From Paraburkholderia sp. PGU19 (GTDB lineage: Bacteria > Pseudomonadota > Gammaproteobacteria > Burkholderiales > Burkholderiaceae), in the NCBI RefSeq assembly GCF_013426915.1, contig NZ_AP023181.1, forward strand, positions 1,302,001 through 1,366,000: DNA of 64,000 nucleotides. The letters are read 5' to 3'. The stretch's first letter is position 1; every line of letters begins with the position of its first letter. A program made the position numbers and the translations under genes. This document shows positions 8,513-62,283 of the stretch, piece by piece. Below the pieces are notes generated by a model that worked only from the letters and a program-made list of their open reading frames with translations, was not told the DNA's origin and made no database searches.

Positions 8513-8525
8513 GTTACTCAGTAAC
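8513..8525. promoter_or_regulatory. GTTAC-N3-GTAAC palindrome, site 1
   Basis: GTTACTCAGTAAC. It lies between the DUF3331 gene and the TetR-type gene, 67 bases upstream of the latter's start, a plausible operator position. One of six perfect copies in the window. Confidence 0.6.
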
Positions 8526-8591
8526 GAATCCTTGACCGAAACTCCCCAAGGCAATACAAAGCTCGATTATCTCCGAGAGTAGATCATCCTG

Positions 8592-9179
8592 ATGATTCCG
8601 AATGCGTCGCTTAAGGATCCTGACTTTATGGAAGCCGCCTTGATCTGTTTCTCGACTTACGATTTCGAAAAGATCACTATCGGTCAAATTTCCAGCTTCA
8701 CAGTTGTGCCACCGACGATGCTTGTCGCAGAGTATGGAGGCAAAACACAGCTGTTTGCTGCTGTGCTCAGCTGGTATATCGACAACCATTTTGACTCGAT
8801 GCTGCGACACCTGCGAAAAGCTTCTTGTCCGATCACTGCAATTCTGTGCTTCTTTCGTGTTGTCAGCGGACCATCGGTCACCTTCGGAGGAAACAGCGCA
8901 AGGCTGCTCTTCACGACCGCGATAAGTCTTGCCGCACGTGGCTCGGCTTTCGAGGACATCGTTTCAGATGCCATGCAAAAACTTGAGTTTTTTTTTAACG
9001 AATGCGTGACTGAGGGTCAAGAGACGAGCGACAGTATGACGCGAGAACCCGCGGACCAGGTCGCTAAGCTATTAATCGGATCCATAGCCGCTCTGCCCGC
9101 TCTCGCTCGCGGCGGACATGCAACGGTGGACCAACTCGTCAAGTCGGTAGAGCTCTTACTGACAAGAAGACCCGCATAA
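8592..9179 (+). CDS. TetR-like regulator with divergent DNA-binding helix
   Basis: A 195-residue protein with TetR architecture. The N-terminal region keeps the spacing of a TetR helix-turn-helix (TIGQISSFTVVPPTMLVAEY, then GGKTQLFAAVLSWY), but the recognition helix is unusual for the family. The C-terminal domain has a typical ligand-domain pattern (RLLFTTAISLAARGSAFEDI, VAKLLIGSIAALPALARGG). No strong ribosome-binding site precedes ATG 8592. Site 1 of the GTTAC palindrome is directly upstream, so autoregulation through that site is possible. Confidence 0.72.
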   Translation: MIPNASLKDPDFMEAALICFSTYDFEKITIGQISSFTVVPPTMLVAEYGGKTQLFAAVLSWYIDNHFDSMLRHLRKASCPITAILCFFRVVSGPSVTFGGNSARLLFTTAISLAARGSAFEDIVSDAMQKLEFFFNECVTEGQETSDSMTREPADQVAKLLIGSIAALPALARGGHATVDQLVKSVELLLTRRPA

Positions 9180-10063
9180 CCGTCGCTATCCGAGGAGATG
9201 TTTGTCCTCACTCAGCACCGCGTCATCAACCGCAGAGCCGGGCACGCGGCCCGGAATTTTCATTGCGGGCTAGTCGAGCGTTTCAACTGGCCCCCGTCCC
9301 ACCAGCCGGAACTTCATGCCGAACAGGCCCGGCACACATCCTCGATCACTTGGCCGGCACGGTCGCATCGGATTTTTTTGTTGCGTCACCGGCAACCGTC
9401 GTTTTTCGGACTTTCAAAGGAGAGCCGGCTGGCGATACAGCACTCTGAAGAGATCTGCGTTCGGTTAGTCCAGAGTATTGGTCTTTTTGTCTTATCGATC
9501 TAAAGTACCGGACGTCGGTTGTAGTGCATAAGCTGCAATGAAATAACAATCGTGTATATGATCTTCCCTCCACAACTTCAGGGAAAACGTACAATTGCGG
9601 CTAAAATAGCTGTTCGGGCTCCCCGCGCGAGACGGCGATCGAAGTGGCCACCGCGCGCTCGGCATGCATACTGTCGCGTAGTCCGAGGGCTGGCTCGGGT
9701 TTTGTCGTTAGCTTGCACCATGTCACGACAGAGCCGGACGACTAACCGCTCACGTCTTTTCGCGCAGAGCGGCGAAGTGACAATCCGTCGTGGCGAACGA
9801 CAGCGCATCGGTCAACACAGCAACGACATGCCGCATAAACGGACATGGCTGCCCTTAACGGACGATGATGCCGCCACGGACGGCAGGATAGATGGCCAGG
9901 AATTTGTCGGCGAGAGGTTCGCGACGTTCAAGGTGCCAAGCCGAACATGCGCCGATCAAACCGCCGGAGAAATGCAGGTCGCGTTGCTTGCGCTGTCCGA
10001 CAGCGCAAGCATGGCCCCGGCTCTAGTACCACGGTATCGCTCGGCCACCGCAAGGCACGGTCA
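9180..10063. other. Gene-free stretch with a long palindrome near its end
   Basis: About 880 bases. The largest open frame (plus strand from 9552) is Arg/Ser-rich and overlaps the real tetR gene on the other strand, so I treat it as a shadow. The one clear structure is the 25-bp palindrome at 9986-10010. Confidence 0.45.
9986..10010. repeat. Perfect 25-bp palindrome
   Basis: GCTTGCGCTGTC, one central C, then GACAGCGCAAGC: twelve-base arms without mismatch. It lies 54 bases past the stop codon of the minus-strand tetR gene. There is no T-run on either side, so it is not a standard intrinsic terminator. It could be a protein-binding site or a transcription pause hairpin. Confidence 0.6.
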
Positions 10064-10639
10064 TCACCTCAGCACGAGAATGGCTGACCGGGCAATCCCC
10101 TCAAGCAGAGCACGATTGGGCCGCACTCGAGCAAGCACCCGGATTCCGAGTAAGGCGCCTAGTAAGAGACGCGCTAGGTCGGTCGCGGGTAGCCCCGTCG
10201 ATACTTCACCTTGTTCCTGGCCTCTCGCTATTGCTCGCCTGAAAAAATCCTCGATCTCAACAAAAACGTCTGACACGACTCCCTTTAGCTCCACATCATC
10301 ATCGCCGAGCTCAAGGGCAGAATTTACCAGAAGACAACCTTTTCGATTTTTATCTTTTATCGAATAGTTGACAATCTCCTTGAAGAATGCCTCGATCGCA
10401 CGCACTGTGGACTGATGTTCGCGAATGACGCGGCCCTCGATGCCCGTCGCAATGTAGCGCGCAAGAGCCATCTTGAAAAGTGCACGTTTATCGCCAAACG
10501 CATTGTAAAGACTGGCACCTGTGATCCCCATTGCCGCAGCCAATTCCCGAACTGAAGTAGACTGGTATCCGTGGAGCCAGAAATGATCCACTGCCGCGTC
10601 TAGCGCGGCTGCCTCATCGAACTCTCTGGGGCGCGCCAT
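10064..10639 (-). CDS. TetR-family regulator (possible redox sensor type)
   Basis: A 191-residue TetR regulator with helix-turn-helix TSVRELAAAMGITGASLYNA, then FGDKRALFKMAL. Its C-terminal domain carries KGCLLVNSALELG. A Cys at this place is typical of the NemR/AcuR-like branch, where NemR uses a reactive Cys to sense electrophiles and chlorine species. I infer possible thiol sensing; it is not shown. The start is preceded by GAGAGG. A 10-bp-arm inverted repeat at 10667-10694 just upstream of the start is a good operator candidate for autoregulation. Divergent from the response regulator at 10948. Confidence 0.9.
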   Translation of the reverse strand: MARPREFDEAAALDAAVDHFWLHGYQSTSVRELAAAMGITGASLYNAFGDKRALFKMALARYIATGIEGRVIREHQSTVRAIEAFFKEIVNYSIKDKNRKGCLLVNSALELGDDDVELKGVVSDVFVEIEDFFRRAIARGQEQGEVSTGLPATDLARLLLGALLGIRVLARVRPNRALLEGIARSAILVLR

Positions 10640-10666
10640 TCAAACTATCCTCTCGTATTTTCTGAG

Positions 10667-10694
10667 TGGGGCGATAGCTCGCCATATCGCCCCA
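10667..10694. promoter_or_regulatory. Inverted repeat, candidate TetR operator
   Basis: TGGGGCGATA, an 8-base spacer, then TATCGCCCCA: perfect ten-base arms, 28 bases upstream of the tetR start codon in the divergent intergenic region. Position and size fit a TetR-family operator. Confidence 0.6.
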
Positions 10695-10947
10695 TTATAA
10701 GTGCGGGTGTCGTCAGCTGGTCACGGAGGTGTGCCGACCAGCCAAATTGGCTCACTGGCAAATAGCGACAATAGTCCGCCACAACCTCTGGCGCGCCATG
10801 CGTTCAGCATTCATCCGGTAAGATTAGCCTCGACCGTAGGTGGCATGGGACTCGTCATCGTGTAATACTTCGTTACCAAATTGGATAGTGTATCCCCGGC
10901 GTCGGACAACGGTTCACGTACGGTCTACTGTATTTGAAAAGGGAGGA

Positions 10948-12088: not shown

Positions 12089-15000
12089 TCAGATTCCAGA
12101 TTCAGACTTGGTAAAAGTACGCCCTCCCGGTTCCGGAAGCCTTACTTCGAACCGCGTTCCGTAAGGGCTCGATGGTTCGACACTAAGTCGCCCCGCGTGC
12201 GCCAGCACAATCGACCGGCATATGGGCAGACCCATGCCCATGCCGTGCGACTTTGTTGTGACAAATGGCGCAAAGATGTAGTCAGCCGCACCCTCCTCTA
12301 TGCCAACACCAGTGTCCTCGATCACGAGTTTTACGTGCCCGTCGACGGACGAACCCGCGATACACAGGCGACGTTCACGGTCAGCAATATCGTGCATTGC
12401 CTCAATAGCGTTGATGACAAGATTGAGAATCACCTGCTGTATCTGAACTCTATCACCCCATACCACACACGCACCCGAAATTGCACTCATATCGAGGCAG
12501 ATGGCGTGCTTCTCAAGCTGGCTCCGTGTAACCAACAACACTTCATCGACTGCGTCGTCCAGGTCGAACGCTGCAAAAGACGGAGCAGATCGTTTGACCA
12601 GCGACCGCAGGCTTTGCACCACGTCATGTGCGCGAGTACTGTCGAATTGAATCCTCTTTAACGCCTCCTCGACTTCGACGAAATCTGGTTCGTCACGCTT
12701 CAGGAATCTCAATGCCGCGCCAGAGCTGCTAGCTATCGAAACTAGCGGTTGACTGACTTCATGTGTAATAGACGCAACCAGCTGCCCCATAGTAGTCAGG
12801 CTCGCTACCCGCGCGAGCTCCTCCCTTGACTCCCGGAGCGCCTGTTCCGCAGCTTCTCGCATCGAATCACTCTGAATCGTATCCGCATAGAGGCGCGCAT
12901 TTTCGAGCGAGATTGCTGCTTGCGAAGCCAATACTTCGAGCAGTGTCGTTCTTTCCTCAGTGAATGCGCCTGATATGAGATTGTTCTCGACATACAGGAT
13001 GCCGACGAGTTCCGATTGTTTCAGCAAGGGCATGCATAACACCGACCGTAGCCCTCGTTGAGTAACTTCCCGGTCCTGAGCGAACTCACCAAAACGCGAA
13101 GCGTCATCAAGCAGGATTCTCCGTCGAGTCCTCGCGACTGTCATGAATATTCCCCGTGCGAAGTCAACTTCCTGAAGCGGGCGCGATTCGATGACATATA
13201 TCGGGCCGTCAAGAGCTGCTCGGGCCTCAGCTTCTATCCTGACGTCGCCCATCCGATTGAGGGCAACCGCGCACCTTTGCGCTCCGGCGTGCTCTAGCAC
13301 GTTTCCGATAAGCACCTCGAGAAGCCGAGGAAGGACAATTTCACTGGAAAGAGCCTGAGATGCAGTTATCACCGCTCTTGTATCCAGGTGCATCTTCCCC
13401 ATATCGGGCGTGGGTTTAGCCCTATCGAGACCAATAATCCGCGTCACCCGAGCCCCGATCTCTTGCGCCTTCGCTTCCGCACCCCAGTTGAGGTATGCGT
13501 ATCGAGCATCCCGCAGCAATGTTTCCGCAACGACCGATAGATTTTGGGCGGAGTAGAAATTCGCTGCCGCTTCAAGCGCGATCGCCTCGTTATGAACGAA
13601 ATCTTGCTTGCGGGCAAGTTCGATCGCCTCTTCATACAGCAATTGCGCTTCGCCGATCCGGCCCTGCACCCTCGCCAGCTCAGCTGATACTAGTGCCGCC
13701 CGATCAGCGAAATTATCAGGACAGGACCTTGCCAGCAGTTGGATGTAATTGTGATGGTCTTGGAGTGCGCAAAGATGCGCGTCTCGCCCCCCCGCTTCCG
13801 TTGCCCTGAAGAAGGCGGCTGCTCGACACAGAGCGCCGTAATACGGAAGATCTGCGGCCTCAATATGTCCCAAGGAAGCGCCGGACAATTCCTTTGCTTT
13901 CCGTTCGGCTTCCAGCGCGCTCTCCCAATCACGGAAAAGGACGCAGATTCGGAGCCGATGTACCCAGAATGCGAACGCGCCCGTGCTCGTGCAGGCGACT
14001 CCATGAAGGAGACTCTCACTCCAGTCCGACTCTAGCCCCCGGGACTCGAACGCATGACCGTATGTGCCGCGCAACGTTGAAACGACCATCAGCTGCGCAA
14101 GTAGCGCATCCACGACGACCTTGAAACCCGCGCTGCGAGCATAATCAACCGCTTCCTCAGTCGCGCGCATAACCTCTTCAAGGGGTGCACCTACGAAGAG
14201 AAGGTTAGAAATCAGATTTCTATGAGAATACACAGCAAACGTGAAGTCGCAACTATCACGTGCAACCTTGACCGCATCTTTTAGGTAGCGTTGAGCAGAC
14301 CGGACAGGGCTTGTCCATGGAACTACCAGCGCGCCAAAGCACACGCGCACGCGCGCCGCCAGTCTGTCAATGCCATCGTTCGGACTCAGCTGGAGTGCTT
14401 TCTCGCCAAGATACAAGCCGCGCTTCGCATCGCCGAAACGGAAAGCAAGAATGGCCGCCGCATGGACAAATGCATAGCTAGCGGCGCTGCAGTACCCTCT
14501 GTCTACGGCCATCAGCGCCGTGGTCAATACAAGACTGTGAACCAGATTCTCATTGTTGCCGAAAATTTCCGGAGTAATAAGGTATCCCAACAGATCTATC
14601 GTTGAGGCCCACAATGGATTAGCCGTCGCCCTCTGCTGTGTGTCCGATTCCAATCCGGCGTTATCAATGTATTGAATCAGCTTCGCACTATCCCTCGCGA
14701 CGTCCTCATCACTTGGCTCCCGCGGAACGGCGATGCCGAGCTGCGCGAGGTAAGATAGTCCGCTATCGAGCGCGACGCCATGTTTGCCTTGCATCGTGTA
14801 CAGAGCAGTGCGAAGTCTCGCCACGCTAGACTTCAGTACAAGGTCGATGTCAGATGACCACAAACGCTCCAATCTTGCCTCGGCGTCAGCCAACTCTGCC
14901 GTTGCGAATTCGCACTCTGCTCTGTGAAACTCAATCACACCCGCAATCGTCGAGTCTTTGACGTTCCGCAGGAGGAATGCAGCAGCCTGAAGATACATGA

Positions 15001-17248
15001 TCGCCGCGCGATAATCCGCTGATTTCTTAGCATGGATCGCTGCGTCAAGATTCAAGCGCGCGTAACGCAGCCTTTCGTCACCGTCATCGATGAGTTCGGC
15101 ACCAAGGTTTATCTGATTCGCAGCGGCAAAAAGCAACTCTCGCTGTTTGGGCAATCTCTCCGCAAGCCGTTTCCCCACATTAACGTGCATTTCCTTGTGC
15201 CGCTGCTCCCGAACGAGGGAGTTGTAAGTGACTGCGCGAATCCGGTCATGCAAAAATGAATATTCTGACGCATTCCATCGGACCAACCCGGTCCGCTTGG
15301 CATGAACAAATAAGCTATGCACGGTGTGCTCTTCAATCTGCGCCGCGACAGCTAGTATCTCCGCCGGGCTACTATCTCCGAGGCATGCCATGCATTGCAA
15401 CAGGTTTAGTGTCGCGAGCGGCAATGTTTCTAGTTTATCGAGGAGCGACTCAGCCACATTGGAGGTGTATTTGCTGGTGCGAGCCTTAGACAAATCCCAC
15501 CGCCACGAATAATTTGTCCAGTCAAACCATACGATTTTCTCATCCAGCAACATAGACATGAACCGTATGACGAAGAACGGATTTGAACCTGTCTTTGCTT
15601 GAATCACAGTGGATAGTGATAGCGATGCAGCCGGCGAGCAGCCCAACACGTCGCTGACGAGGCGGTTCACATCGACGAACCGCAGCGGGCCCAGTGTTAT
15701 TTCTACTGTCGGAACAGCGGAGTAGGCGAATAGCGTCCGTACATGTCGCGGCTCGACCGATCCTTCGTCACGCGAAGCGAAAACCAATAACAGGTTGGAT
15801 AGCTCTCTTGACTGCAATAGGCGCTCGATGACACTTAGTGTGCCGCTATCGGCCCACTGCAGATCGTCGAGGAAAAGCACCGTTCGGCGCTGGTCGGCTG
15901 ATAGGCACCCGATGAATTTGAATACCGTATCGAAGATCCGGTCTCGACCATCAGCCGCGTTGCTTGGCCCGCACGGAGAATCGCCAACGACCAAATAAAG
16001 GTCTGGCAACAACGTATATAACAGCCCGATCGAGGACCCGAGCATGTTCCGAAGTTTCCGAGTCCATGCGGTGAATTCCTCGACACCATCTCTCATGGTG
16101 TTATGAAGCAAACCTTGCAATGCCATTGCTAAGGGGCCGTAAGGTGTCGTTTGTCCCAGCTGCTCGCATTTGCCCGCCCCAAACAGGTGAGTTTTTCTGT
16201 CGAGCGATCGCTCGAAATCTCGCACTAGCGCAGTTTTACCGGTCCCTGAGCCACCAAATAGGGCTACGCACCTCGTTCGACCGTCATTCACCACATCTTC
16301 GAATGCATCGCACAGAGCGTCCAGTTCGCCGACACGCCCGTATATGCGGTCGGACGCGTTGAGCCTTCTAGCTGCGTTTGCATGATCAACCGGAAACCAC
16401 TCGATGCGCGAATGCTCCCTCCACGCCGCATGGCATTTCAACAGGTCTCCGAGTAGACCTTCGGCAGATGAATATCGATCGCTCGGGTCCTTGGCAATCA
16501 ACGTCGCGATGACTTGCGAGAGTACCTGTGGGTAGTCGCTCCTGACTGCGCTCGCTGGCAATGGTAGCATCGCCAGGTGCGAGTGAACTGCACCCGGAAA
16601 ATCCTCCGCGGGAACCGGCGGAGAACCTGTAGCTAGTTCATATAAGAGACAGCCCAGAGAGTACAGATCCGCGCGCGCGTCAACCGGCCGATTGATCGTG
16701 CCACATAGTTCGGGGGCAAGGTAATGCAGCGACGTGCTCGACACGGGAGCAACTGAATGATGATCTGCCCCCACACGAATCGAATTTCCGAGGCCTGTCA
16801 GCCATGCTCTCTTCGCTCGCCAGTTGAAGAGAATATTTTCGGGTGCCAGATCCCGGTGTATAACGCCTTGCGCGTGCATCGCCGAGACAGCACGTGTTAG
16901 AGCGACGGCGAGCGTCAGGAATTGATCAATTGCAAGTGGTGCGCCACAACTTTCTCGGAGAATGTACCCACCTGGATCTGAGAGTGTCAGCTGAATCTGG
17001 TCCAGACAATGCGTGAGTTTCAAGGGCTGGAGTGCCCATGATGTCATCACGGCCTCCTTCAGTTCGTGCTCCGAGCGCAGCAGCCAAGGTTTCCCCGACC
17101 CTGATTCCAGAGACGTAGCCGCAAGCAGGACCGATCCCCTTTCGTCGCTCCACTTACGGTACAGTTCAATCTGCCCTGCTCGAAGCAGAGTCATATCGAA
17201 GATAGCAGATTCGTTCATGTTGGCTTGGCAGATATCAATCGCGGTCAC
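12089..17248 (-). CDS. Trifunctional Ser/Thr kinase-like, AAA ATPase, GAF, histidine kinase
   Basis: A 1719-residue hybrid sensor. Residues 1-290 are a Ser/Thr-kinase-like domain with HRDLAPEN at 131-138 and an LAPE motif near 178, but the DFG loop reads TGLG, so the metal-binding Asp is missing. A P-loop ATPase follows, with GGSGTGKT at 322-329 and Walker B FLDDLQWAD. A long helical repeat region leads to a GAF domain (near ALSSEIVLPRLLEVLIGN) and a transmitter: H-box ASITHEVSQPL, N-box LNLVINAIEAM, G1 EDTGVGI, G2 HGMGMGLPICRS. It is cytoplasmic, with no membrane segment. The GTG at 17248 gives the longest frame; ATG 17218 is an alternative. The response regulator at 10948 is the probable partner. 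Confidence 0.93.
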   Translation of the reverse strand: MTAIDICQANMNESAIFDMTLLRAGQIELYRKWSDERGSVLLAATSLESGSGKPWLLRSEHELKEAVMTSWALQPLKLTHCLDQIQLTLSDPGGYILRESCGAPLAIDQFLTLAVALTRAVSAMHAQGVIHRDLAPENILFNWRAKRAWLTGLGNSIRVGADHHSVAPVSSTSLHYLAPELCGTINRPVDARADLYSLGCLLYELATGSPPVPAEDFPGAVHSHLAMLPLPASAVRSDYPQVLSQVIATLIAKDPSDRYSSAEGLLGDLLKCHAAWREHSRIEWFPVDHANAARRLNASDRIYGRVGELDALCDAFEDVVNDGRTRCVALFGGSGTGKTALVRDFERSLDRKTHLFGAGKCEQLGQTTPYGPLAMALQGLLHNTMRDGVEEFTAWTRKLRNMLGSSIGLLYTLLPDLYLVVGDSPCGPSNAADGRDRIFDTVFKFIGCLSADQRRTVLFLDDLQWADSGTLSVIERLLQSRELSNLLLVFASRDEGSVEPRHVRTLFAYSAVPTVEITLGPLRFVDVNRLVSDVLGCSPAASLSLSTVIQAKTGSNPFFVIRFMSMLLDEKIVWFDWTNYSWRWDLSKARTSKYTSNVAESLLDKLETLPLATLNLLQCMACLGDSSPAEILAVAAQIEEHTVHSLFVHAKRTGLVRWNASEYSFLHDRIRAVTYNSLVREQRHKEMHVNVGKRLAERLPKQRELLFAAANQINLGAELIDDGDERLRYARLNLDAAIHAKKSADYRAAIMYLQAAAFLLRNVKDSTIAGVIEFHRAECEFATAELADAEARLERLWSSDIDLVLKSSVARLRTALYTMQGKHGVALDSGLSYLAQLGIAVPREPSDEDVARDSAKLIQYIDNAGLESDTQQRATANPLWASTIDLLGYLITPEIFGNNENLVHSLVLTTALMAVDRGYCSAASYAFVHAAAILAFRFGDAKRGLYLGEKALQLSPNDGIDRLAARVRVCFGALVVPWTSPVRSAQRYLKDAVKVARDSCDFTFAVYSHRNLISNLLFVGAPLEEVMRATEEAVDYARSAGFKVVVDALLAQLMVVSTLRGTYGHAFESRGLESDWSESLLHGVACTSTGAFAFWVHRLRICVLFRDWESALEAERKAKELSGASLGHIEAADLPYYGALCRAAAFFRATEAGGRDAHLCALQDHHNYIQLLARSCPDNFADRAALVSAELARVQGRIGEAQLLYEEAIELARKQDFVHNEAIALEAAANFYSAQNLSVVAETLLRDARYAYLNWGAEAKAQEIGARVTRIIGLDRAKPTPDMGKMHLDTRAVITASQALSSEIVLPRLLEVLIGNVLEHAGAQRCAVALNRMGDVRIEAEARAALDGPIYVIESRPLQEVDFARGIFMTVARTRRRILLDDASRFGEFAQDREVTQRGLRSVLCMPLLKQSELVGILYVENNLISGAFTEERTTLLEVLASQAAISLENARLYADTIQSDSMREAAEQALRESREELARVASLTTMGQLVASITHEVSQPLVSIASSSGAALRFLKRDEPDFVEVEEALKRIQFDSTRAHDVVQSLRSLVKRSAPSFAAFDLDDAVDEVLLVTRSQLEKHAICLDMSAISGACVVWGDRVQIQQVILNLVINAIEAMHDIADRERRLCIAGSSVDGHVKLVIEDTGVGIEEGAADYIFAPFVTTKSHGMGMGLPICRSIVLAHAGRLSVEPSSPYGTRFEVRLPEPGGRTFTKSESGI

Positions 17249-19816: not shown

Positions 19817-19825
19817 ACAATTCCC

Positions 19826-23560: not shown

Positions 23561-24178
23561 ATGACCAATGCCGTCATCGAATGCATCCTGAGCCGCAGCG
23601 CCGCCAAGTATTACGACCCCGCCGCGACCTTGAGTGACGACCAGATCCGCGAACTGGTGCGAATCGGCACCTCCGCGCCGACGTCCTTTCACTTGCAGAA
23701 CTGGCGCTTCATCGCCGTTCGCACGCCTGAAGCCAAGGCTCGGCTCAGCCCAATCGCCTGGAATCAGCCTGCGATCACCGATGCGGCTGTTACCTTCATC
23801 ATCTGCGGCCAGTTGGCCGATTCCAGCGTAATACCGGATCGTCTGGCGCCGCTGGTGGAAGCGGGTGTCATGCCGGAGGCGATGGTGTCGGAATGGGAAA
23901 TCCCCGCACGCGGTCTGTACAAGGAACACCCGCAACGCCAGCGAGACGAGGCGGTACGCACTGGCACCTTTGGCGCTGCGGCGATGATCTACGCGGCTCG
24001 CTCGATTGGCCTGGGTTCGACGCCCATGATCGGTTTCGATGCCGAAGCTGTGCACCGGGAGTTCGGACTGACCGACGACGAGGTGCCGGTCATGCTGTTG
24101 ACCGTAGGCGCAGAGCGTCCCGGAAACTGGGCACAGAAACTGCGACGCGCCGTCGCCGATGTGTTGCATCTCGTGTGA
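23561..24178 (+). CDS. Nitroreductase family protein, copy 1
   Basis: A 205-residue FMN-dependent nitroreductase-fold oxidoreductase. The N-terminal RSAAKYYDPAATLSDDQIRE, LVRIGTSAPTSFHLQNWRFI is the FMN-phosphate-binding and dimer region; AAAMIYAARSIGLGSTPMIG, FDAEAVHREFGL is the usual C-terminal half. The family reduces nitro compounds, quinones or other acceptors with NAD(P)H. A CMD gene follows 36 bases downstream, suggesting an operon. Bases 23564-24140 are almost identical to 30807-31383, one difference seen by eye, whereas the following CMD genes have clearly diverged. Confidence 0.92.
   Translation: MTNAVIECILSRSAAKYYDPAATLSDDQIRELVRIGTSAPTSFHLQNWRFIAVRTPEAKARLSPIAWNQPAITDAAVTFIICGQLADSSVIPDRLAPLVEAGVMPEAMVSEWEIPARGLYKEHPQRQRDEAVRTGTFGAAAMIYAARSIGLGSTPMIGFDAEAVHREFGLTDDEVPVMLLTVGAERPGNWAQKLRRAVADVLHLV
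23564..24140 (+). repeat. 577-bp direct repeat within nitroreductase gene, copy 1
   Basis: Near-identical to 30807-31383 (offset 7243). Identity starts abruptly at codon 2 and ends abruptly 12 codons before the stop, which fits recent gene conversion or recombination rather than simple whole-operon duplication. Confidence 0.85.
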
Positions 24179-24214
24179 GTTCAAACCATGAATTGAGGAT
24201 TATTAAGGAAAGCT

Positions 24215-24763
24215 ATGATGGCAAGAACCTCTCCTTTAAATCCGGAACCGGTGCCGGTCGATTCGAAACCTACTCTCGACGCGTTCACAAAGAACATCGG
24301 GTTCACTCCGACGATGATGACGACCTTCGCGCAGAGCCCCATCGCGTTCAACGGGTGGGCGACCCTGCGTGGTTCCTTGTGCAAGGCCCTCGACGTGAAG
24401 ACGCGTGACAGCATCGGCCTGGCCGTCTCCGAGGTGAATGCCTGCAACTACTGCCTGACGGTTCACAGTTTCACGGCCCAGCACATGGCGAAGCTGCCGC
24501 CCGATGAAATCATCTTCGCTCGGAAGGGCCATGCGACCGCCCCCCAGCGTGACGCGGCTGTCCAGTTCGCGCGCAAAGTCATCGAGACACGCGGTCAGGT
24601 CACTGACGCCGATCTGATAGCCATCCGTGATGCCGGGTACACGGATGCCAACGTCATGGAGATCGTCGCGCTGGTCGCCATGTATTCCCTGACGAACTTC
24701 TTCAACAACGTGTTCGACCCCGAGAAAGACTTCCCCGCCGTTACACCGGCAGGCTCGATCTGA
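24215..24763 (+). CDS. CMD/AhpD-like protein
   Basis: A 182-residue CMD protein with an intact CNYCLTVH motif. Conserved blocks: DSKPTLDAFTKNIGFTPTMM, FARKVIETRGQVTDADL, LTNFFNNVFDPEKDFPAV. It follows nitroreductase copy 1 with a short gap and is the counterpart of the gene at 31608, to which it is roughly 85% identical by eye. Pairing of a nitroreductase with a CMD protein twice in the window suggests a common two-step role in handling an electrophile or peroxide, which is inference. Confidence 0.92.
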   Translation: MMARTSPLNPEPVPVDSKPTLDAFTKNIGFTPTMMTTFAQSPIAFNGWATLRGSLCKALDVKTRDSIGLAVSEVNACNYCLTVHSFTAQHMAKLPPDEIIFARKGHATAPQRDAAVQFARKVIETRGQVTDADLIAIRDAGYTDANVMEIVALVAMYSLTNFFNNVFDPEKDFPAVTPAGSI

Positions 24764-27851: not shown

Positions 27852-28560
27852 CGCCGTCGCTATCGGATTTCGAGAGGAAAGACCGAGAAACGCTTCTAAT
27901 CGACGGCGTTTCTCCATTACGCTCCAAGACCCTATCACCATCACACGGTTTTTACATTTTCAGAGAAGATCAAGGACGATAAAGAGGCACCGGTAGCGCC
28001 CGTTCATCGAGCAAAGTATCTGAACGGGTCATCGACACAGAGGAGCAAAAAGCCGTTTTGTCCGGAGCGCGAAGCTCATCCGGCCGACAGTGTCGCCTGG
28101 ACGATACAGACGTATATATCGAACAGGGGCTACCCTACAGCGCGGTCAGACCGGACAACGGATGCAGAGAGTATGAGCATCGATCATCTACACCGTAAGC
28201 AAATCTATACGCGCGTATCTCAAACAGAGACTTAGATTTCGTTGCGCTGGTGAAGTATTCAAAGTTTAATCGAACCTAAGAAGGAACAGCAGGTTCGTCA
28301 GGAAGTTGTTTTGCATGATCGTCGACCAGGAGATTGCGGAAAAAGCAACGAGGCTGAGTTGACCTGCCGTTTATCGAGATTCGTCTTTACGGAAATGAAG
28401 ACGCCTGGTCGATGGAGGAGTCAACATGTGCCGATTGCACCGACTAACGCACTCCGGGAATGCGTTCTCGATCCGCAGCAGGCCGTCAACGGGATTCGAC
28501 GGACGGCGATCTCGACAGTGGGTCGCGAAACGATCATTGGCAAAAACCGGGAAACCATCC
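27852..28560. other. Stretch without a recognised gene
   Basis: About 700 bases. A frame from about 27905 to 28236 is open for some 110 codons but has no start codon and no motif I recognise; it may be a remnant or chance. Confidence 0.35.
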
Positions 28561-28821
28561 ATGGCACTTTCAAATTCAGAAAGACAGAGACAGTATCGGG
28601 AGAGGCGGCTTGGCGTTGGAGGAAAACATGAGCGCATCAGTTGTCTCGTATCTATTGCTTCCAAGCGAAGTCTAGAACGTTTGGCATTTCATTTCGATCG
28701 TACGATTACCGGCACGATTGAGATGCTGATTAACGAGAGAACAAATCAGGTGCTTAGTCAGCTTGACGAAGATGGACAGCAGCGCTTCTTTTCACAAGGA
28801 TTTGTGCCAGAGGATGCATAG
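28561..28821 (+). CDS. Small Arg-rich protein, possibly ribbon-helix-helix-like
   Basis: An 86-residue frame from ATG 28561: SNSERQRQYRERRLGVGGKH, ERISCLVSIASKRSLERLAF, HFDRTITGTIEMLINERTNQ. The basic N-terminus followed by a beta-helix-helix-like section (ERISCLVS..SLERLAFHFDRTITGTIEMLI) suggests a small DNA-binding protein of the kind found on plasmids and prophages. I do not recognise a named family. No strong ribosome-binding site is visible, so expression is uncertain. Confidence 0.5.
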   Translation: MALSNSERQRQYRERRLGVGGKHERISCLVSIASKRSLERLAFHFDRTITGTIEMLINERTNQVLSQLDEDGQQRFFSQGFVPEDA

Positions 28822-30785: not shown

Positions 30786-31421
30786 ATGACCAGCGGAACC
30801 ATCAAGACCAATGCCGTCATCGAATGCATCCTGAGCCGCAGCGCCGCCAAGTATTACGACCCCGCCGCGACCTTGAGTGACGACCAGATCCGCGAACTGG
30901 TGCGAATCGGCACCTCCGCGCCGACGTCCTTTCACTTGCAGAACTGGCGCTTCATCGCCGTTCGCACGCCTGAAGCCAAGGCTCGGCTCAGCCCAATCGC
31001 CTGGAATCAGCCTGCGATCACCGATGCGGCTGTTACCTTCATCATCTGCGGCCAGTTGGCCGATTCCAGCGTAATACCGGATCGTCTGGCGCCGCTGGTG
31101 GAAGCGGGTGTCATGCCGGAGGCGATGGTGTCGGAATGGGAAATCCCCGCACGCGGTCTGTACAAGGAACACCCGCAACGCCAGCGAGACGAGGCGGTAC
31201 GCACCGGCACCTTTGGCGCTGCGGCGATGATCTACGCGGCTCGCTCGATTGGCCTGGGTTCGACGCCCATGATCGGTTTCGATGCCGAAGCTGTGCACCG
31301 GGAGTTCGGACTGACCGACGACGAGGTGCCGGTCATGCTGTTGACCGTAGGCGCAGAGCGTCCCGGAAACTGGGCACAGAAACCGCGACGCGCCGTGGCG
31401 GAAGTATTGGATTTGGTATGA
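30786..31421 (+). CDS. Nitroreductase family protein, copy 2
   Basis: 211 residues, identical in sequence to copy 1 over nearly its whole length but with a six-residue N-terminal extension (MTSGTIK in place of M) and a different last few residues (AEVLDLV). AGAGGAA precedes ATG 30786. FMN-dependent oxidoreductase of the nitroreductase fold. Followed after 186 bases by a CMD gene, as in copy 1 but with a longer gap. Confidence 0.92.
   Translation: MTSGTIKTNAVIECILSRSAAKYYDPAATLSDDQIRELVRIGTSAPTSFHLQNWRFIAVRTPEAKARLSPIAWNQPAITDAAVTFIICGQLADSSVIPDRLAPLVEAGVMPEAMVSEWEIPARGLYKEHPQRQRDEAVRTGTFGAAAMIYAARSIGLGSTPMIGFDAEAVHREFGLTDDEVPVMLLTVGAERPGNWAQKPRRAVAEVLDLV
30807..31383 (+). repeat. 577-bp direct repeat within nitroreductase gene, copy 2
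   Basis: Counterpart of 23564-24140. Flanking sequence is unrelated on the left and diverged on the right. Confidence 0.85.
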
Positions 31422-31607
31422 GTATTTCGCCACGACATTGAACGCGCCGACCGATTAAATGGCCACCAGGTGAGAGGCAAGTACAAGCCTCTGCACATTG
31501 AAGGCCCAACCAGCTTCGACCCTGACCGGGCCACGAAGTAAGCCGACGGACAGTTCCCCCAAGGGCTTCCATCAAATAATCAAATTAGTTATATAAGGAC
31601 TACTAAG

Positions 31608-32153
31608 ATGCCGAGAACTATTGCTCTCACGCCGGAACAGGTACCGGCCGATTCGAAACCGACTCTCGATGCTTTCACGAAGAGCATCGGATTCACCCCG
31701 ACCATGATGGCCTCGTTCGCGCAAAGCCCAATCGCGTTCAATTCGTGGGCCACCCTGCTCGGGTCCATGAGCAAGGCGCTCGACGTGAAGACGCGTGACA
31801 GCATCGGTCTGGCCGTCTCCGAGGTGAATGGTTGTAACTACTGCCTGTCAGTCCACAGCTTCACGGCCAAGCATATGGCGGAGCTACCGGCTGATGAGAT
31901 CACTCTCGCCCGGAAGGGACACGCCAGCGACCCGAAACGCGACGCCGCCGTCCAGTTCGCGCGCAAGGTCATCGAGAAGCGCGGCCAGGTCACTGACGCC
32001 GATCTGAAAGCTGTTCGCGATGCCGGCTACACCGATGCGAACGTTATGGAGATTATCGCGCTGGTCGCCATGTATTCCCTGACGAACTTTCTTAATAACG
32101 TGTTCGATCCGGAGAAGGACTTTCCCGCCGTTACGCCGGCTGGGTCGATCTGA
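31608..32153 (+). CDS. CMD/AhpD-like protein
   Basis: 181 residues with an intact CNYCLSVH motif; the closest relative in the window is the gene at 24215. Conserved DSKPTLDAFTKSIGFTPTMM and LTNFLNNVFDPEKDFPAVTP. It follows nitroreductase copy 2. The pair's divergence from the 24215 gene contrasts with the near-identity of the two nitroreductases. Confidence 0.92.
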   Translation: MPRTIALTPEQVPADSKPTLDAFTKSIGFTPTMMASFAQSPIAFNSWATLLGSMSKALDVKTRDSIGLAVSEVNGCNYCLSVHSFTAKHMAELPADEITLARKGHASDPKRDAAVQFARKVIEKRGQVTDADLKAVRDAGYTDANVMEIIALVAMYSLTNFLNNVFDPEKDFPAVTPAGSI

Positions 32154-40217: not shown

Positions 40218-40230
40218 GTTATAGCGTAAC
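40218..40230. promoter_or_regulatory. GTTAC-N3-GTAAC palindrome, near copy (site 7)
   Basis: GTTATAGCGTAAC, one mismatch to the perfect palindrome, flanked by the same outer CG pairs (CGTTAT...GTAACG). It lies between the terminator and the TnpB remnant. Confidence 0.4.
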
Positions 40231-40668: not shown

Positions 40669-41473
40669 TTACCTCGTCTCACGCACGTCGATTCCCAACA
40701 ATTCGAGCCCTTTGCATAGGGTGTCGGCTGCAAACCGGCACAAGGTTAGCCGAATGCTTTTTGACATCATCATTCGACGTAAGCACCGGACAGGCTTCAT
40801 AGAATCGCATTAGTGAACTTGTGAGTTCGTAAAGGTATGCGCGGCGAGCTGTCTCACGCAGCCGCATGCACCGCATCAGCAAACCTGACCAAGTGTAGCG
40901 CCAGTCACCGTTCCCATCTTTCAGACAGGCGAAATGGCGAAGCATTGTTCCATTCACCTGCGCGACGCAGGACACTTCGCGTCCTCGAATAGGCGTACTG
41001 GAGATACGGCCCCGTGTTGCCGTCAAGATACAGAATTATCACCCATTCGGATGAGTAACCGGCGCATCTGTTTTTGACCAAATCAAAATATTTCACCGCG
41101 CCGAACCCTACGGTTTTAGCAATAGCACGCCGTTCTCGTTCGTCCATTTCTGGGTTCTTATGAGCGACAACATCGCACGCTCGACGCGTCGCTTCCGAGA
41201 ACAGTTCCGATAGCTTGACGTTGCCGCCACTGCAGGTCTTTCGGGGTTTCCCGTTACCACCCAGCACTACCCCAAACCCCACATGCTCTGTACGCACCTC
41301 GGGTGCGACATAGCCGGCGTGATGCGCGACCGAAAAACGGTTCGCAAAGTGTGACTTCTGCCGTGCATCTACGACGTATATCACTCGGTGGGCCTTCAGA
41401 TCTTTAAGTCGATATCGAATAGCGGCCAAATCTGTCGTCGAGTACAGGCATCCAGACTGCGTTACCGAGTAAC
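40669..41473 (-). pseudogene. argS: 3' half of arginyl-tRNA synthetase gene
   Basis: Starting within a CLYSTTDLAAIRYRLKDL segment, the minus strand encodes the C-terminal half of ArgRS: RVIYVVDARQKSHFANRF, VGFGAVKYFDLVKNR, GPYLQYAYSR, then in other frames ELTSSLMRFYEACPVL and finally RLTLCRFAADTLCKGLELLG ending at TAA 40669. Several frameshifts and stops interrupt it and the catalytic HIGH-containing half is absent. A functional argS must exist elsewhere. The break at the upstream end coincides with a GTTAC-N3-GTAAC palindrome. Confidence 0.85.
41461..41473. promoter_or_regulatory. GTTAC-N3-GTAAC palindrome, site 2
   Basis: GTTACCGAGTAAC, flanked by GC on both sides to give an 18-base near palindrome. 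It sits exactly at the broken end of the argS remnant. Confidence 0.55.
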
Positions 41474-41993: not shown

Positions 41994-42227
41994 GATTTTC
42001 CTCCGGGAAGTGTCCTTCGCGTGATGTCTTGGATGTCCGATGGAATCAGTGTAGAGCGATGCGTTCCTGAAGGTTGGTACCACCAAAACAATTCATTGTT
42101 GTCGGTTTGCGCACCCGTGAACCATCCGGATATCAGCCGAGGCACGATTACTTGGGTCCTCTGCCTACCGGGCTCAACGCGGTATTTGTGACACGGTTCG
42201 AACTTCTATCACGCGTCGTTACTATGT

Positions 42228-42240
42228 AACGGTGAATAGC
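42228..42240. promoter_or_regulatory. GTTAC-N3-GTAAC palindrome, site 3
   Basis: GTTACTATGTAAC with outer CG and GG. About 500 bases upstream of the response regulator start. Confidence 0.55.
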
Positions 42241-51434: not shown

Positions 51435-51524
51435 GGCGATATCCGAGTTACCGAGTCGCCAGTTTAGAAGAACGGTGACCTACTCAATAGGCACAAGAAG
51501 TTTCCAACCGACTGGGACATCGCG

Positions 51525-53957: not shown

Positions 53958-53984
53958 GCACTCGGTTGACCGTTGGGTTTGATT

Positions 53985-54008
53985 GATCCGCAGGAGCGCT
54001 TGCGGATC
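53985..54008 (+). terminator. Hairpin downstream of secreted protein gene
   Basis: GATCCGCA, 8-base loop, TGCGGATC. No T-run follows, so at best a weak or factor-dependent terminator. Confidence 0.35.
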
Positions 54009-54784: not shown

Positions 54785-54797
54785 GTTACACAGTAAC
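54785..54797. promoter_or_regulatory. GTTAC-N3-GTAAC palindrome, site 4
   Basis: GTTACACAGTAAC with outer CG and GG. About 360 bases upstream of the LexA box. Confidence 0.55.
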
Positions 54798-55154: not shown

Positions 55155-55170
55155 CTGTGTTTTTATACAG
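55155..55170. promoter_or_regulatory. LexA (SOS) box
   Basis: CTGTGTTTTTATACAG, a perfect CTGT-N8-ACAG LexA site with AT-rich centre, 20 bases upstream of the imuA start. Predicts DNA-damage induction of the operon. Confidence 0.9.
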
Positions 55171-55190
55171 TACTTAACCTTGGAGCGGCC

Positions 55191-57294: not shown

Positions 57295-57298
57295 AGCC

Positions 57299-60200
57299 AT
57301 GTCTTCAGTTTCCTTTGGCTTGCCCGGTTACGCCGAGCTTCAGTGCTTCTCGAACTTCACGTTTCTTCGCGGCGCGTCGCATGCTGAGGAGCTAACCGAA
57401 CGCGCCGGCCGACTGGGCTACGAGGCGATCGCCATCACGGACGAATGCTCGCTCGCGGGCATCGTCCGAGCGCATGTTGCGGCGAAAGAGTCGAACGTGA
57501 AGCTGCTGGTAGGGGCTCACTTTCGCGTGACGAATGCCGACGGCTCCCCGGCCCTCGCCTTTACCGCTATCGCTCAGAACCGCGACGGATACGGAAACCT
57601 CTCGGAACTGATCACGCTCGCGCGGACGCGCACCGCAAAGGGCAGCTATCTGGTCTACCCGCATGACCTGGACCACCCGGACGCGCCGTATGGCCATCTG
57701 CGGCGGTTGCCCGACTGCCTGATTATCCTCACACCCGAATTTCCAGCGAAGGAAGCGCGGCTCATGGCACAGGCCGAGTGGGCAGCAGAGACATTCGGCG
57801 ACGATCGCTGTTGGTTGGGGCTTACGCTGCACGCTCGCGCGCTGGACGATGTACATCGCAATGTTGTCTATGACGTGGCCGAGCGGCATGCGCTACCTGT
57901 TGTTGCGACCGGCCAGGTGCTGATGCACGTGCGCTCGCGCAAGCCCCTGCAGGACACTCTGACGGCCGTTCGTTTGAACAGGCCGGTGACTGAGTGTGGC
58001 TTCGAACTCATGCCGAACGCCGAACAGCATCTGCGATCACGCTTGCGGCTTGCCAATGTGTATCCATTGGACGCGCTTGCGGAAACATTGAATTTTGCAT
58101 CGCGCTGTTCGTTCAGGCTCGACGAGCTTCGGTATGAATATCCGGACGAACTCGTTCCCCCGGGATCACTCCGACCGCATACCTGCGTCGTGAGACATAC
58201 TTCGGCGCGCGGCGGCGCTATCCACGCGGCATCCCTCACGGAGTGCAGACGCAGATTGAACACGAACTGACGCTCATCGCCGATCTGAAATACGAGCCGT
58301 ATTTTCTGACCGTCTATGACATCGTGCGCTTCGCGCGCAATGAGGGAATCCTTTGTCAGGGACGAGGATCCGCGGCCAATTCTGCCGTTTGCTTTTGTTT
58401 GGGCGTCACAGAGGTTGACCCCGATCGGAGCAGCATGTTGTTCGAGCGCTTCATCAGTAAAGAGCGTGGGGAGCCCCCGGACATAGACGTCGATTTCGAA
58501 CACCAGAGACGGGAAGAGGTTATTCAGTATATCTACCGTAAATACACACGGACTCGCGCGGCGCTCGCGGCCGCAGTGACCACGTATCGGCCGCGCTCGG
58601 CGCTACGTGATTCGGGTAAGGCGCTAGGCATCGATCCCGTCATCGTCGATCGCGTTGCAAAGGAGCATCACTGGTTCGATTCGAGCGCTGATCTCACCCG
58701 TCGTTTCATAGACAGTGGGCTCGACCCAGAAGCTCCGATGATCCAGCAATGGGCGACGCTGGCAGCTCAGCTGATCGGTTTTCCGCGACATCTTTCGCAG
58801 CACACAGGCGGCTTCGTGATCGCGCGCGGCAAGCTTTCCCGACTTGTTCCCATCGAGAACGCGTCGATGCGAGACCGCAGTGTCATTCAATGGGACAAGG
58901 ACGACCTCGAGGCGCTCGGCCTGTTGAAGATTGACGTGCTCGCGCTGGGCATGTTGTCGGCGATCCGGCGCACACTCGAACTGGTGTCACAGCGCCGTCG
59001 GGAGCCGTTTGAGATGCAGGACATACCGCCCGAGGACGAAGCCACGTACGACATGATCTGCGCGGCAGACACGGTCGGCGTTTTCCAGATCGAATCGCGG
59101 GCGCAGATGAGCATGTTGCCGCGTCTGAAGCCGCGCGAGTTTTACGACCTTGTCATTGAAGTCGCTATTGTGCGACCGGGCCCCGTACAGGGCGGCATGG
59201 TTCACCCGTACCTACGTCGCCGGCAAGGCCTCGAACCTGTGACTTACCCAAGTCCCGACGTCGAGCAGGCGTTGAAGCGCACGCTCGGCGTGCCGATCTT
59301 TCAGGAGCAGGTGATGCAGGTCGCGATGCTGGCGGCCGGATTCAGCGCTGGCGAAGCCGATCAGCTGCGACGCGCGATGGCGGCGTGGAAACGCAAAGGC
59401 GGGCTTGAGCATTATCATGATCGCATCGTCCAAGGCATGCTCCATCGCGGCTACGATCGCGAGTTTGCCGAGTCGATCTTCGCGCAGATACAGGGCTTCG
59501 GTGAATATGGATTCCCGGAGAGCCACTCGGCCAGCTTTGCCCTTCTCGTCTACGCCAGCTCCTGGTTGAAAAAGCACGAACCGGCCGCTTTCCTCTGCGC
59601 GATGCTGAACAGCCAGCCGATGGGCTTCTATTCACCTTCACAGCTTGTGCAGGATGCAAAGCGGCATGGGGTTGGCGCGCTGCCGATCGACGTCATGGTC
59701 AGTGGCTGGGATTCGTCGCTCGAAGGCGACGGGAGCATGGCACCCGTCCGTCTTGGTATGTCCATCGCGCGCGGCATGCGTGAAGAAACGGCGCGTCGAA
59801 TTGAAGCCGCTCGCGCCGTCAGACCTTTCCGAGACATCGCGGATCTCGCAAACCGTGCCCAGCTCGATCGTCACGACCTGCAGGTACTTGCGGCCGCGAA
59901 CGCGTTGAAAGCGCTTGCGGGAGATCGGCGTCAGGCGCTGTGGACTGCCGTCGCCTCAGTGCCGGAAAAGGATCTTTTGCGGGCGACGGCGCGCGAGGAA
60001 GAGGCGCCGGCGCTCACCGCACCCACGGAAGGACAGGACCTGGTGGCTGACTATCGCTCAACGGGCCTGACGCTAGGCCGTCATCCGCTGGAGTTGCTGC
60101 GACCTAAGCTGCTGTCCATGCGATTAATGCCCGCTGAAGTGCTGATGCGATATCGTAACGGGCAACTCGCGCGCGCCTGCGGCATCGTCACGGTGCGTCA

Positions 60201-60444
60201 ACGTCCGGGCACGGCCAACGGCGTGACATTCATGACGCTGGAAGACGAATCCGGGTCGGTCAATGTCATCGTTTGGCAATCGGTGCTCGAGCGGCACCGG
60301 CGCGAAGCACTCGGGTCTTCGTTGCTAGCGGTATATGGCGTCTGGCAGAGCGAAGGCGGCGTAAAGCACCTCGTCGCGCAGCGACTCGTCGACGTTTCGC
60401 ATCTGCTCGGCGAACTGCCGACGACGAGCCGGAATTTTCACTGA
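57299..60444 (+). pseudogene. dnaE2: DnaE2 (ImuC) error-prone DNA polymerase, frameshifted
   Basis: Starts four bases after imuB at ATG 57299. The first frame has the PHP domain (YAELQCFSNFTFLRGASHAE, YEAIAITDECSLAGIVRAH) and runs to DELVPPGS, then departs from the family. From about 58168 a second frame reads TPTAYLRRETYFGARRRYPR and continues with the polymerase palm (QGRGSAANSAVCFCLGVTEV, EPPDIDVDFEHQRREEVIQY), helix-hairpin-helix and OB domains to 60444. One base is missing near 58167; restoring it gives a normal 1049-residue DnaE2. As sequenced, no full-length enzyme is made, so the SOS mutasome would lack its polymerase. Confidence 0.9.
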
Positions 60445-60464
60445 AACCACTGCGGAGAACTTCA

Positions 60465-60806
60465 ATGCCGAACAGCATCCTGTTTAACGCGGAGGCCGCC
60501 GTCCTGGAGGTCGTGCCGCGCGTCGTAGAGCGGCACAGGGCGAGAGGAGTCCTGACCTGGAATTTGCTTCACAAGTTGGAGGAAGAGGTGTTGGCAGAAG
60601 TCTCAACGAGTGGAAGATTCAGCGAGCGCCTGTTGGAAATGATCTGCGCGCCCGCGGCCCTCTCCTATCCTAACGACAATCGGCCCGCTTCCTTTGAGGA
60701 TCACGAATTCGTCCCGACGGTCTTTCACGCAATCGAGAAGGCATGGCGGCATGTGAACGGAGAGCGACTCTCGTTTGCCGTATACGGCGACGCGCGGCTA
60801 GCTTGA
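60465..60806 (+). CDS. Small protein of unknown function downstream of dnaE2
   Basis: 113 residues from ATG 60465 with GGAG eight bases upstream and only 20 bases from the dnaE2 stop, so probably co-transcribed. Charged helical N-terminus (VLEVVPRVVERHRARGVLTW, NLLHKLEEEVLAEV) and a compact C-terminal half. I do not recognise the family; its place in the operon suggests a link to the SOS response. Confidence 0.6.
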   Translation: MPNSILFNAEAAVLEVVPRVVERHRARGVLTWNLLHKLEEEVLAEVSTSGRFSERLLEMICAPAALSYPNDNRPASFEDHEFVPTVFHAIEKAWRHVNGERLSFAVYGDARLA

Positions 60807-60832
60807 AGAGCGAATCGATACGCTACGCAACA

Positions 60833-61765
60833 CTATCGCCCCAATTCTCCCTTGCACCAAGCACCGGGCGCGTGGACACCTGCCGAATGAGGGAACTCGT
60901 AAGCCGGATTATGTGGATTGAACGCATCGTCGGTCCAGGTACGGGGACTGATATGTTCAAAACTGATCTCCTCAATCAGAGTTCCGTCCATGTCAGTAGC
61001 TGTGACCCCGCGTAGCTGCGCACGATGCAAATCCAGCATCAAACTTACGCGCGGTGCGAAGTGCGCCGGAGGTCCGTATTGAGAATCCCATGTCAACGCC
61101 AGCACCTTTCGACCGCCAACCGTCGGCACATCGATATGAGTAGGCTTTGCGCTGACGCCTTCTGCTGCGAAGCTAGTCATATCATGCTCAAGTGTACGAA
61201 GAACAAAACCTATACCGAGGTCACGGATACTATGTCGTGACCGGATCTTTGTGAACGTGCCGTCGACAGCGAAGCTACCCGACAGGAACCGCCATGGGCC
61301 ACCAAAATGGCCCATGAAACGTTTTTCGTCACGAGTTTCATCGTAGATTATTTCCTGTCCCGCATGTGCACCGTCCGCCAACCATTTAGCGTAAATGCGT
61401 CGCGGACTATCCTGGCAACGTACTTCGATATGGTCAGCTTTCGAAGGCCAATACCCATTCACACGCTCGCAGCGACGCATTTGATATGCGTGAGCATTGG
61501 CCGGGCCGATTGCAATACGGATATACGCGACTAATGCCTGGGGAGTCATTTCGGAGATTAATTCGACAACTTCTGCCTCCGACATCGAGGCAAGTGCTCC
61601 GCCATCGATGCGGTCTCGGAGCGCACGCGCCTGCCCGGAAGCAGACAAACAAGCGAAATTCCTGATGTCCCCCGCAGCCGGTGTACTATGGTCGGGACCA
61701 CAGGTTTCAGATGTCGTATCGCTCATTTCAAAAGATTTCACCGGTACAGTCAGGACCGCTGACAT
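60833..61765 (-). CDS. DUF1571 family protein
   Basis: 310 residues. The C-terminal two thirds fit DUF1571 (YQMRRCERVNGYWPSKADHI, PRRIYAKWLADGAHAGQEII, GSFAVDGTFTKIRSRHSIRD, LGIGFVLRTL), probably an exported protein of unknown function. Upstream of ATG 61765 the same frame encodes WLSAIGIVC, which with the first residues (AMSAVLTVPVKSFE) forms a plausible signal peptide, but there is no ATG or GTG in front of it before a stop. Either a rare start is used or the original start has been lost. Convergent with the gene at 60465. Confidence 0.75.
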   Translation of the reverse strand: MSAVLTVPVKSFEMSDTTSETCGPDHSTPAAGDIRNFACLSASGQARALRDRIDGGALASMSEAEVVELISEMTPQALVAYIRIAIGPANAHAYQMRRCERVNGYWPSKADHIEVRCQDSPRRIYAKWLADGAHAGQEIIYDETRDEKRFMGHFGGPWRFLSGSFAVDGTFTKIRSRHSIRDLGIGFVLRTLEHDMTSFAAEGVSAKPTHIDVPTVGGRKVLALTWDSQYGPPAHFAPRVSLMLDLHRAQLRGVTATDMDGTLIEEISFEHISPRTWTDDAFNPHNPAYEFPHSAGVHAPGAWCKGELGR

Positions 61766-62079
61766 CGCGCAAACGATTCCTATAGCAGACAGCCATCTTG
61801 TTTAATTTGTCAACTTGAGGAATTGCTCGTCAATAGGTGCACGGCTTGACGCCGCTTTACTTTCTGCAGCGTTTTGTTGCCGTTTGCGGCTCCATCTCAT
61901 AAATCTGCGAAGACATTGCATAGTCGCCCCGGTCGGTGGCCATCAATGGCGGCAAAAACGACAATGTGCGACGGGTCGATCGACATCGTCATTATCTAAA
62001 GATAGCGGTACGGGAGTAGAACACTAACCACTCGATTCGTCGGAGTAGGGACAGTTATCGCAGTCACCGGCCTAATTTT

Positions 62080-62092
62080 GTTACTGCGTAAC
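62080..62092. promoter_or_regulatory. GTTAC-N3-GTAAC palindrome, site 5
   Basis: GTTACTGCGTAAC, extended by matching outer T and A (TGTTAC...GTAACA). Confidence 0.55.
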
Positions 62093-62270
62093 AGCACGAT
62101 GATTATGCTCGACTTTGTCGGCGTTGCTGAAGCGACACGCACCCGCCTGCGGCCGCCGGACATCACTCAGCCCAGACGGTGCTGAAAGTGTCAAGATGAC
62201 CGCACATGACTCGGACCAAATCGCGTCATATCGCTGTGATGAGACAGCGTCGCCGAATGCCGTCAAGGCC

Positions 62271-62283
62271 GTTACGCAGTAAC
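62271..62283. promoter_or_regulatory. GTTAC-N3-GTAAC palindrome, site 6
   Basis: GTTACGCAGTAAC flanked by CC and CG. It lies 173 bases upstream of the DUF3788 start; with site 5 it forms the only close pair in the window. Confidence 0.6.

Follow-up and report, generated by a model that had tools for sequence, protein, structure and literature searches.

A clustered 13-bp palindrome in a Paraburkholderia genomic island and a small ribbon-helix-helix-type protein as its candidate partner

Why should one short, perfect palindrome occur again and again between the genes of a single chromosomal region? The stretch that raises this question is a 64,000-nucleotide piece of the Paraburkholderia sp. 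PGU19 genome (contig NZ_AP023181.1, here C3, positions 1302001–1366000; "the window" below means this whole stretch). The genome, G000 in our comparisons, comprises 11.2 Mb on five contigs. An earlier note on the window had reported six exact copies of GTTAC-N3-GTAAC, and six there are, against 0.015–0.023 expected under Markov models of order 1–3. Five lie where the note placed them (8513..8525, 41461..41473, 54785..54797, 62080..62092 and 62271..62283: sites 1, 2, 4, 5 and 6), while the remaining one, site 3, lies at 42218..42230 rather than at 42228. A further copy at 40218..40230 has one mismatch, as described, and the "half-degenerate" copy at 51447 has, read by eye, two. The answer towards which we lean, with rather more confidence than doubt, is that small ribbon-helix-helix (RHH)-type proteins of one family recognise the palindrome, and that an 86-aa member of this family, encoded within the window, is now an island-wide regulator.

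Counted across the whole genome, the palindrome is ordinary: there are 15 exact copies, versus 13 for a reversed control pattern. Its placement is far from random. Thirteen of the 15 copies fall inside 170 kb (C3:1209208–1379411; binomial p = 2e-22) of C3, a 2.38-Mb secondary chromosome, giving about one site per 13 kb; the two others are at C3:401022 and C1:1310794. For the 171 kb of C3:1209001–1380000 the Markov expectation is 0.04–0.05 copies, and among the 1024 possible 5-3-5 half-sites GTTAC ranks top in that region, with 13 copies to the runner-up's 5 and a mean of 0.25. Since the total is much like that of the control, the genome-wide count that had been offered as a check would have failed as a test; the evidence rests on clustering.

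Within the cluster, the sites keep clear of intact genes, as had been claimed: open reading frames (ORFs) conserved between species make up 62% of the region, yet none of the 13 cluster sites lies inside one, and a few are overlapped by ORFs without conservation. The reported tendency towards CG at both outer ends is also visible in a by-eye count (C before 10 of 13 sites, G after 9 of 13, both at 7 of 13). A dispersed repeat was considered as the source of the sites and rejected, the flanks of the window sites looking unrelated to one another. Six specific 13-mers of the palindrome gave no match in a text search of one open library of papers.

The region itself is of low GC content: 0.54–0.57 over C3 1.22–1.40 Mb, with 0.60 in the stretch holding the first site and 0.58–0.65 in stretches sampled elsewhere on C3. 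In sampled stretches, the GC skew of C3 switches near 1.6 and 0.4 Mb, away from the cluster at 1.21–1.38 Mb. Of six ParB_N matches in the genome, the single one on C3 is at 1593910, which is 215–385 kb from the cluster; none is encoded among the sites. An origin or terminus site is not supported by these skew and ParB positions, and a ParB/parS system was rejected as well, given no ParB_N match among the sites and a cluster away from the origin. Both branches of the earlier suggestion, an operator set and a replicon-organising site, stay live.

Are the sites held in place over evolutionary time? The gene-to-gene interval of each G000 site was looked up in stretches of five relatives: G020, G021 and G083, with which the region is collinear, G043, with which it is partly so, and G087. 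In this look-up, which was run without a scrambled-motif control, 9 of the 10 exact sites in the G083 stretch fell inside intervals syntenic to those of G000, which make up 13.5% of the stretch (binomial p = 1e-7). In G020, where such intervals cover 6.4% of the stretch, they hold 7 of the 12 exact sites (p = 3e-6) and 3 of the 4 with one mismatch; in G021 they hold all 6 exact sites. Two of the 12 G020 sites, A117573 and A130014, have identical surroundings. Flank identity between paired sites is 0.40 without gaps and 0.66 with gaps. G020 and G043 retain the site of the DedA interval, though most of the intergenic DNA there aligns poorly, and G083 and G021 retain it too. Most sites, then, recur in the same gene-to-gene intervals of relatives despite diverged flanks.

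Among the sites lies an unannotated gene that the earlier note overlooked (28561..28821, + strand). It encodes an 86-aa protein, our candidate binder; the longest ORF begins at 28426, and the family alignment favours the ATG at 28561. Relatives in G020, G021, G043 and G083 are 81–95% identical, and the gene lies between the outermost sites in these four genomes, in G000 and in Burkholderia sp. L27(2015) (G495), that is, in all six genomes with family gene and cluster on one contig (the contigs of G087 and G494 are too short to judge). In G043, where the protein is 81% identical, an exact site lies 115 bp ahead of the start. Neither Pfam nor NCBIfam gives a match to the protein at E ≤ 1, and no model of either collection exceeds its cut-off in the family members scanned; PHROGs gives weak matches only, and the family profile finds two PDB sequences, both with E above 0.7. 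The AlphaFold model (predicted local distance difference test, pLDDT, 81; predicted template-modelling score, pTM, 0.52) shows four helices arranged as in RHH proteins, two of them at 32–44 and 49–67, and no strand assigned in the monomer. Foldseek matches in the PDB include KacA, MatP, AtaR, CopG, AmrZ and Arc, none with an E-value under 0.05, and the top rows are mostly what we take to be RHH proteins.

The family and the palindrome also occur together far from the island. Elsewhere in the genus, the motif is found in groups of 2–4 sites on a small gene, whose neighbours are, by eye, presumably IS21-type transposase or recombinase-like genes. Of 17 family loci, 15 from a scan of genome contigs and 2 from viral contigs, 9 have an exact site within −400 to +700 of the start codon. 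Loci L218–L221 have none in this interval (L221 has one at −2099), and L230, L232 and L234 match at the N-terminus only. At the order level, 399 genomes were searched; eight loci turned up outside G000, and every one has an exact site (one being the same gene as L229). When loci are pooled, an exact site is present at 22 of 38. The site itself had led to five of these 22, all of them profile rows; once the nine profile rows are removed, the count is 17 of 29, including the order-level eight. The six weakest genus matches (L211–L213, L215–L217) have no site. At L231, from a Geobacter metagenome-assembled genome, the family gene is flanked by three copies of a one-mismatch variant, GTTACCC[GA]CTAAC, perhaps a shifted specificity.

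A further case comes from PLSDB, where the window protein has one weak match (36%, E = 0.007), on a 2653-bp Raoultella plasmid (NZ_AP021996.1; L187). This plasmid, found by protein match alone, has five exact sites around the homologous gene: three at 32–33 bp spacing before it, one within it and one on its stop codon. The array perhaps serves in copy control of the mini-plasmid. Plasmid and phage searches with the G090 homologue gave no match.

Sites at family genes recur at particular positions: (i) −67 to −25, (ii) +130 to +139, where they cover the codons R/C-Y-x-V-T, and (iii) +240 to +273, at or near the stop codon; in the gene type nearest the window protein, the site is at −109 to −127. 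The valine codon within the in-gene site is GTA in 18 of 18 cases, versus 12 of 59 elsewhere in the same genes (p = 5e-10; some of the in-gene-site rows in this count had been found through the site). At nine loci, representing eight distinct genes, a site includes the stop codon. There is selection on the DNA word itself, embedded in codons, and we count this in favour of recognition by the family. Related genes in G026, G028, G075 and G092 (L203–L206) have a common one-mismatch site, GTTACCGCATAAC, at −115 to −122.

At the level of whole genomes, the 22 of 97 genus genomes with a strong family match (E ≤ 1e-15) have a median of 7 sites and the 75 without have a median of 1 (p = 1.4e-10); the reversed control pattern gives p = 0.09 in the same comparison. 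Family scoring covered up to 54 candidates per genus genome and up to 13 in the order-level search, such that absence of the family is not firm. In Burkholderia sp. L27(2015), where best-segment identity is 73%, five of eight sites lie in the 74 kb holding the family gene. Two other sets of sites were set aside. Several of those in G026 and G075 are within ORFs with high GC at third codon positions, and they prove nothing because these ORFs lie in DNA that is 87–91% identical between the two genomes. In G034 there is one site per unit of a tandem array (C1, about 1794230–1851593; L253), with nine sites at 7.0–7.3-kb spacing, at least one of them inside a 1019-aa ORF that is primase-like by eye.

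How does this pairing compare with known systems? MatP is an RHH protein and the organiser of the Ter macrodomain. The earlier note had remarked on the layout shared with matS and had not expected MatP in this group; indeed, the MatP family PF06303 is above cut-off in none of the 97 genus genomes, while the E. coli control is detected. The likeness of the sites goes further than remarked: according to PMC8669397, the cognate and preferred matS of Photorhabdus thracensis MatP is GTTACNNNGTAAC (matS2), a word identical to that of the island, although this is word identity alone. Both systems use 13-bp 5-3-5 palindromes spread over a long region. Among 22 E. coli proteins compared by hhalign, MatP came first (score 25.0 as a single sequence, 29.2 when MatP was entered as a four-sequence family), the next being ycbZ at 20.2; the RHH controls relB, nikR and metJ reached 12.9, 12.5 and 9.2, and 60 shuffles at most 15.4. 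The hhalign probability is 23–24% with the single MatP sequence and 47–50% with MatP as a family, over MatP 76–129, and blastp gives 25% identity over 55 aa (E = 0.35). MatP chains rank 2, 4, 5, 6 and 8 in the PDB fold search. Unlike those of MatP, the island sites are not at the terminus, the protein has 86 aa and aligns to MatP 76–129 only, and many of its relatives have a site at their own gene. The 86-aa protein resembles MatP in its site and probably in its fold; it is not shown to be a MatP.

Other RHH proteins offer partial parallels. RHH repressors and antitoxins (CopG, Arc, KacA and AtaR; also AmrZ) are in the fold-search list of the 86-aa protein, and they share with its relatives the short palindromes at the start of the own gene; they differ in that the island set is dispersed over 170 kb and that family sites lie inside codons and on the stop codon. 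The plasmid replication regulator family RepB-RCR_reg (PF10723) is matched at E ≤ 1 by 6 of 14 family members, and the three inspected more closely match over the RHH part, but the best family score is 20.7 against a cut-off of 21 and the window protein lacks any match at E ≤ 1. CdbA is a nucleoid-associated RHH protein of Myxococcus. It is in the fold-search list by entry name, first at rank 22 and weakly.

We propose that the RHH-type family recognises the palindrome, the G000 member being the 86-aa protein encoded among the sites. Since the family gene itself bears a site in many relatives, the ancestral job was likely autoregulation. Within the island lineage of Paraburkholderia, the protein would have become an island-wide regulator that acts via the 13 exact sites plus one or more weaker ones, placed upstream of or between genes; we infer both that it binds these sites and that this binding regulates transcription. 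Promoter-like sequence is found beside the sites: by a simple score of our own making, the 14 sites exceed 3000 random noncoding positions (p = 0.001). Six base pairs past site 1, which is exact in the syntenic interval of G021, G043, G083 and G087 and one mismatch off in G020, the window has TTGACC-N17-TACAAA (8532..8560, + strand). Five relatives have TTGAC[CT]-N17-TATAA[AC] 7 bp after the corresponding site, so that in six genomes TTGAC[CT]-N17-TA[TC]AA[AC] follows at 6–7 bp. The one-mismatch site at 40218 has likely orthologues, also with one mismatch, in G020 (A35026) and G083 (140907), a pairing that is our own reading, as the interval look-up placed both under the neighbouring 41461; each of the three has TTGAC[CT]-N17-TAC[TG]CT 12 bp off on its left. 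Site 3 is exact in the syntenic interval of G020, G021 and G083. Sites 5 and 6 lie 363 and 172 bp upstream of a DUF3788 gene (62456..62911, + strand) and are paired with sites in G020 and G021 and, for site 6, G083. Site 4 is within a 9.7-kb stretch without conserved genes.

Several observations weigh against this proposal. Conserved gene starts follow within 400 bp at only 5 of 14 sites, and three sites sit in a convergent interval, which is a poor fit for a regulator. No site, whether exact or with one mismatch, stands at the start of the island-type gene in G000, G020, G021, G083 or G087, and the best Foldseek E-value of the 86-aa protein is 0.05. Conservation in place has gaps: the interval of site 1209208 is without a site in G020, G083 and G087, and G043 has sites in two of the seven intervals syntenic to G000 sites. 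While 19 of the 22 genomes with a strong family match have at least three sites, so do 10 of the 75 without one, and the genome-level correlation is inflated by the sites in the family's own genes and by kinship. Finally, G009, G026, G052 and G075 encode a related gene (about 50–60% identity) and have no dense site cluster.

Regulation is our leading explanation, and an organising role is its main rival. Here the same RHH-type protein would bind, and its main job would be architectural, namely to fold, insulate or silence the low-GC island in the manner of MatP, the nearness of promoters being incidental. The word shared with P. thracensis matS (PMC8669397), the leading hhalign rank of MatP and the high places of its chains in the fold search all point this way, as do a spacing of about one site per 13 kb and the several sites that are far from conserved starts or convergent. 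The short protein with its partial alignment and low hhalign probability, the position of the cluster off the terminus, the relatives' sites at their own genes and the enrichment of promoter-like sequence beside sites point away from it, and we regard an architectural job as possible but doubtful. The same tentative standing applies to its fuller form, a second, independent MatP-like system: a mini-MatP organising or insulating the resident low-GC island via about 14 matS-type sites, and with its origin in a family of mobile elements that have their own site written into codons and the stop codon.

Regulation by the 86-aa protein has also to be set against other binders, and against no binder at all. 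Another conserved island regulator could bind the palindrome, the RHH link being a bystander effect; LysR, AraC and MocR/GntR regulators and LuxR-type response regulators are encoded in the window and syntenically conserved, but the family–site link holds far from the island, down to the 2.65-kb Raoultella plasmid, and we think this improbable. Somewhat more improbable still is that the dispersed sites are functionless footprints of decayed mobile RHH cassettes. Traces of such cassettes do exist: a family-gene remnant (58% over 38 aa) contains site 1251709 and has 1251815 right next to it, a shorter resemblance in G020 (45% over 29 aa, E = 0.005) coincides in part with site A159489, two of the five clustered G495 sites (634773 and 634891) are, by eye, in and beside a remnant-like ORF, and the G090 and G083 family genes adjoin genes that look transposase-like by eye. 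The other 11 G000 cluster sites, in contrast, have no remnant at E < 0.05, and most syntenic intervals of G083, G020 and G021 retain an exact site while the flanks diverge. Least probable of all is the TetR-like protein of 195 aa (8592..9179, + strand) that the earlier note had tied to the set. Its start lies 66 bp past a site that is exact in the syntenic interval of G021, G043 and G087; it has no Pfam family at E ≤ 0.001 and a weak RutR resemblance far under the cut-off. The protein is matched in 5 of the 97 genomes (E ≤ 1e-20), in one of them (G083) partially, and in G020 there is no match at E ≤ 1e-20, nor at E ≤ 1e-8 in a 300-kb stretch. The sites nevertheless number 12 in G020 and 15 in G083 (10 within its island stretch), and the site before the gene is exact in G083 and one mismatch off in G020. 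As clusters, that site and the promoter-like sequence after it persist in both genomes without an intact TetR-like gene, this protein was rejected as the binder of the whole set.

The window encodes nitroreductases, carboxymuconolactone-decarboxylase-type proteins, a resistance-nodulation-division (RND) pump and a flavodoxin-fold reductase, together with LysR, AraC and GntR/aminotransferase regulators and a hybrid kinase. A pair of nitroreductase and carboxymuconolactone-decarboxylase-type genes is present twice (23561–24763 and 30786–32153), and among the best 20 of 32 records the first copy has counterpart pairs, at 79–86% DNA identity, on plasmids of rhizobia, Methylobacterium, Cupriavidus and Paraburkholderia. 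The hybrid (12089–17248, − strand) has 1719 aa with Ser/Thr kinase, AAA_16, GAF and histidine-kinase ATPase domains; it and a 1696-aa ORF at C3:1211528–1216618 match the same stretch of G495.

For a protein family in which no scanned member reaches a Pfam or NCBIfam cut-off, the work described here provides a candidate function and a site that can be tested. It also places a DNA word of MatP type, together with an RHH-type partner, in a genus where MatP is not detected. If the 86-aa protein is a regulator, a single small protein would control a whole resident island; if it is an organiser, it would show how a selfish RHH gene can come to serve chromosome architecture.

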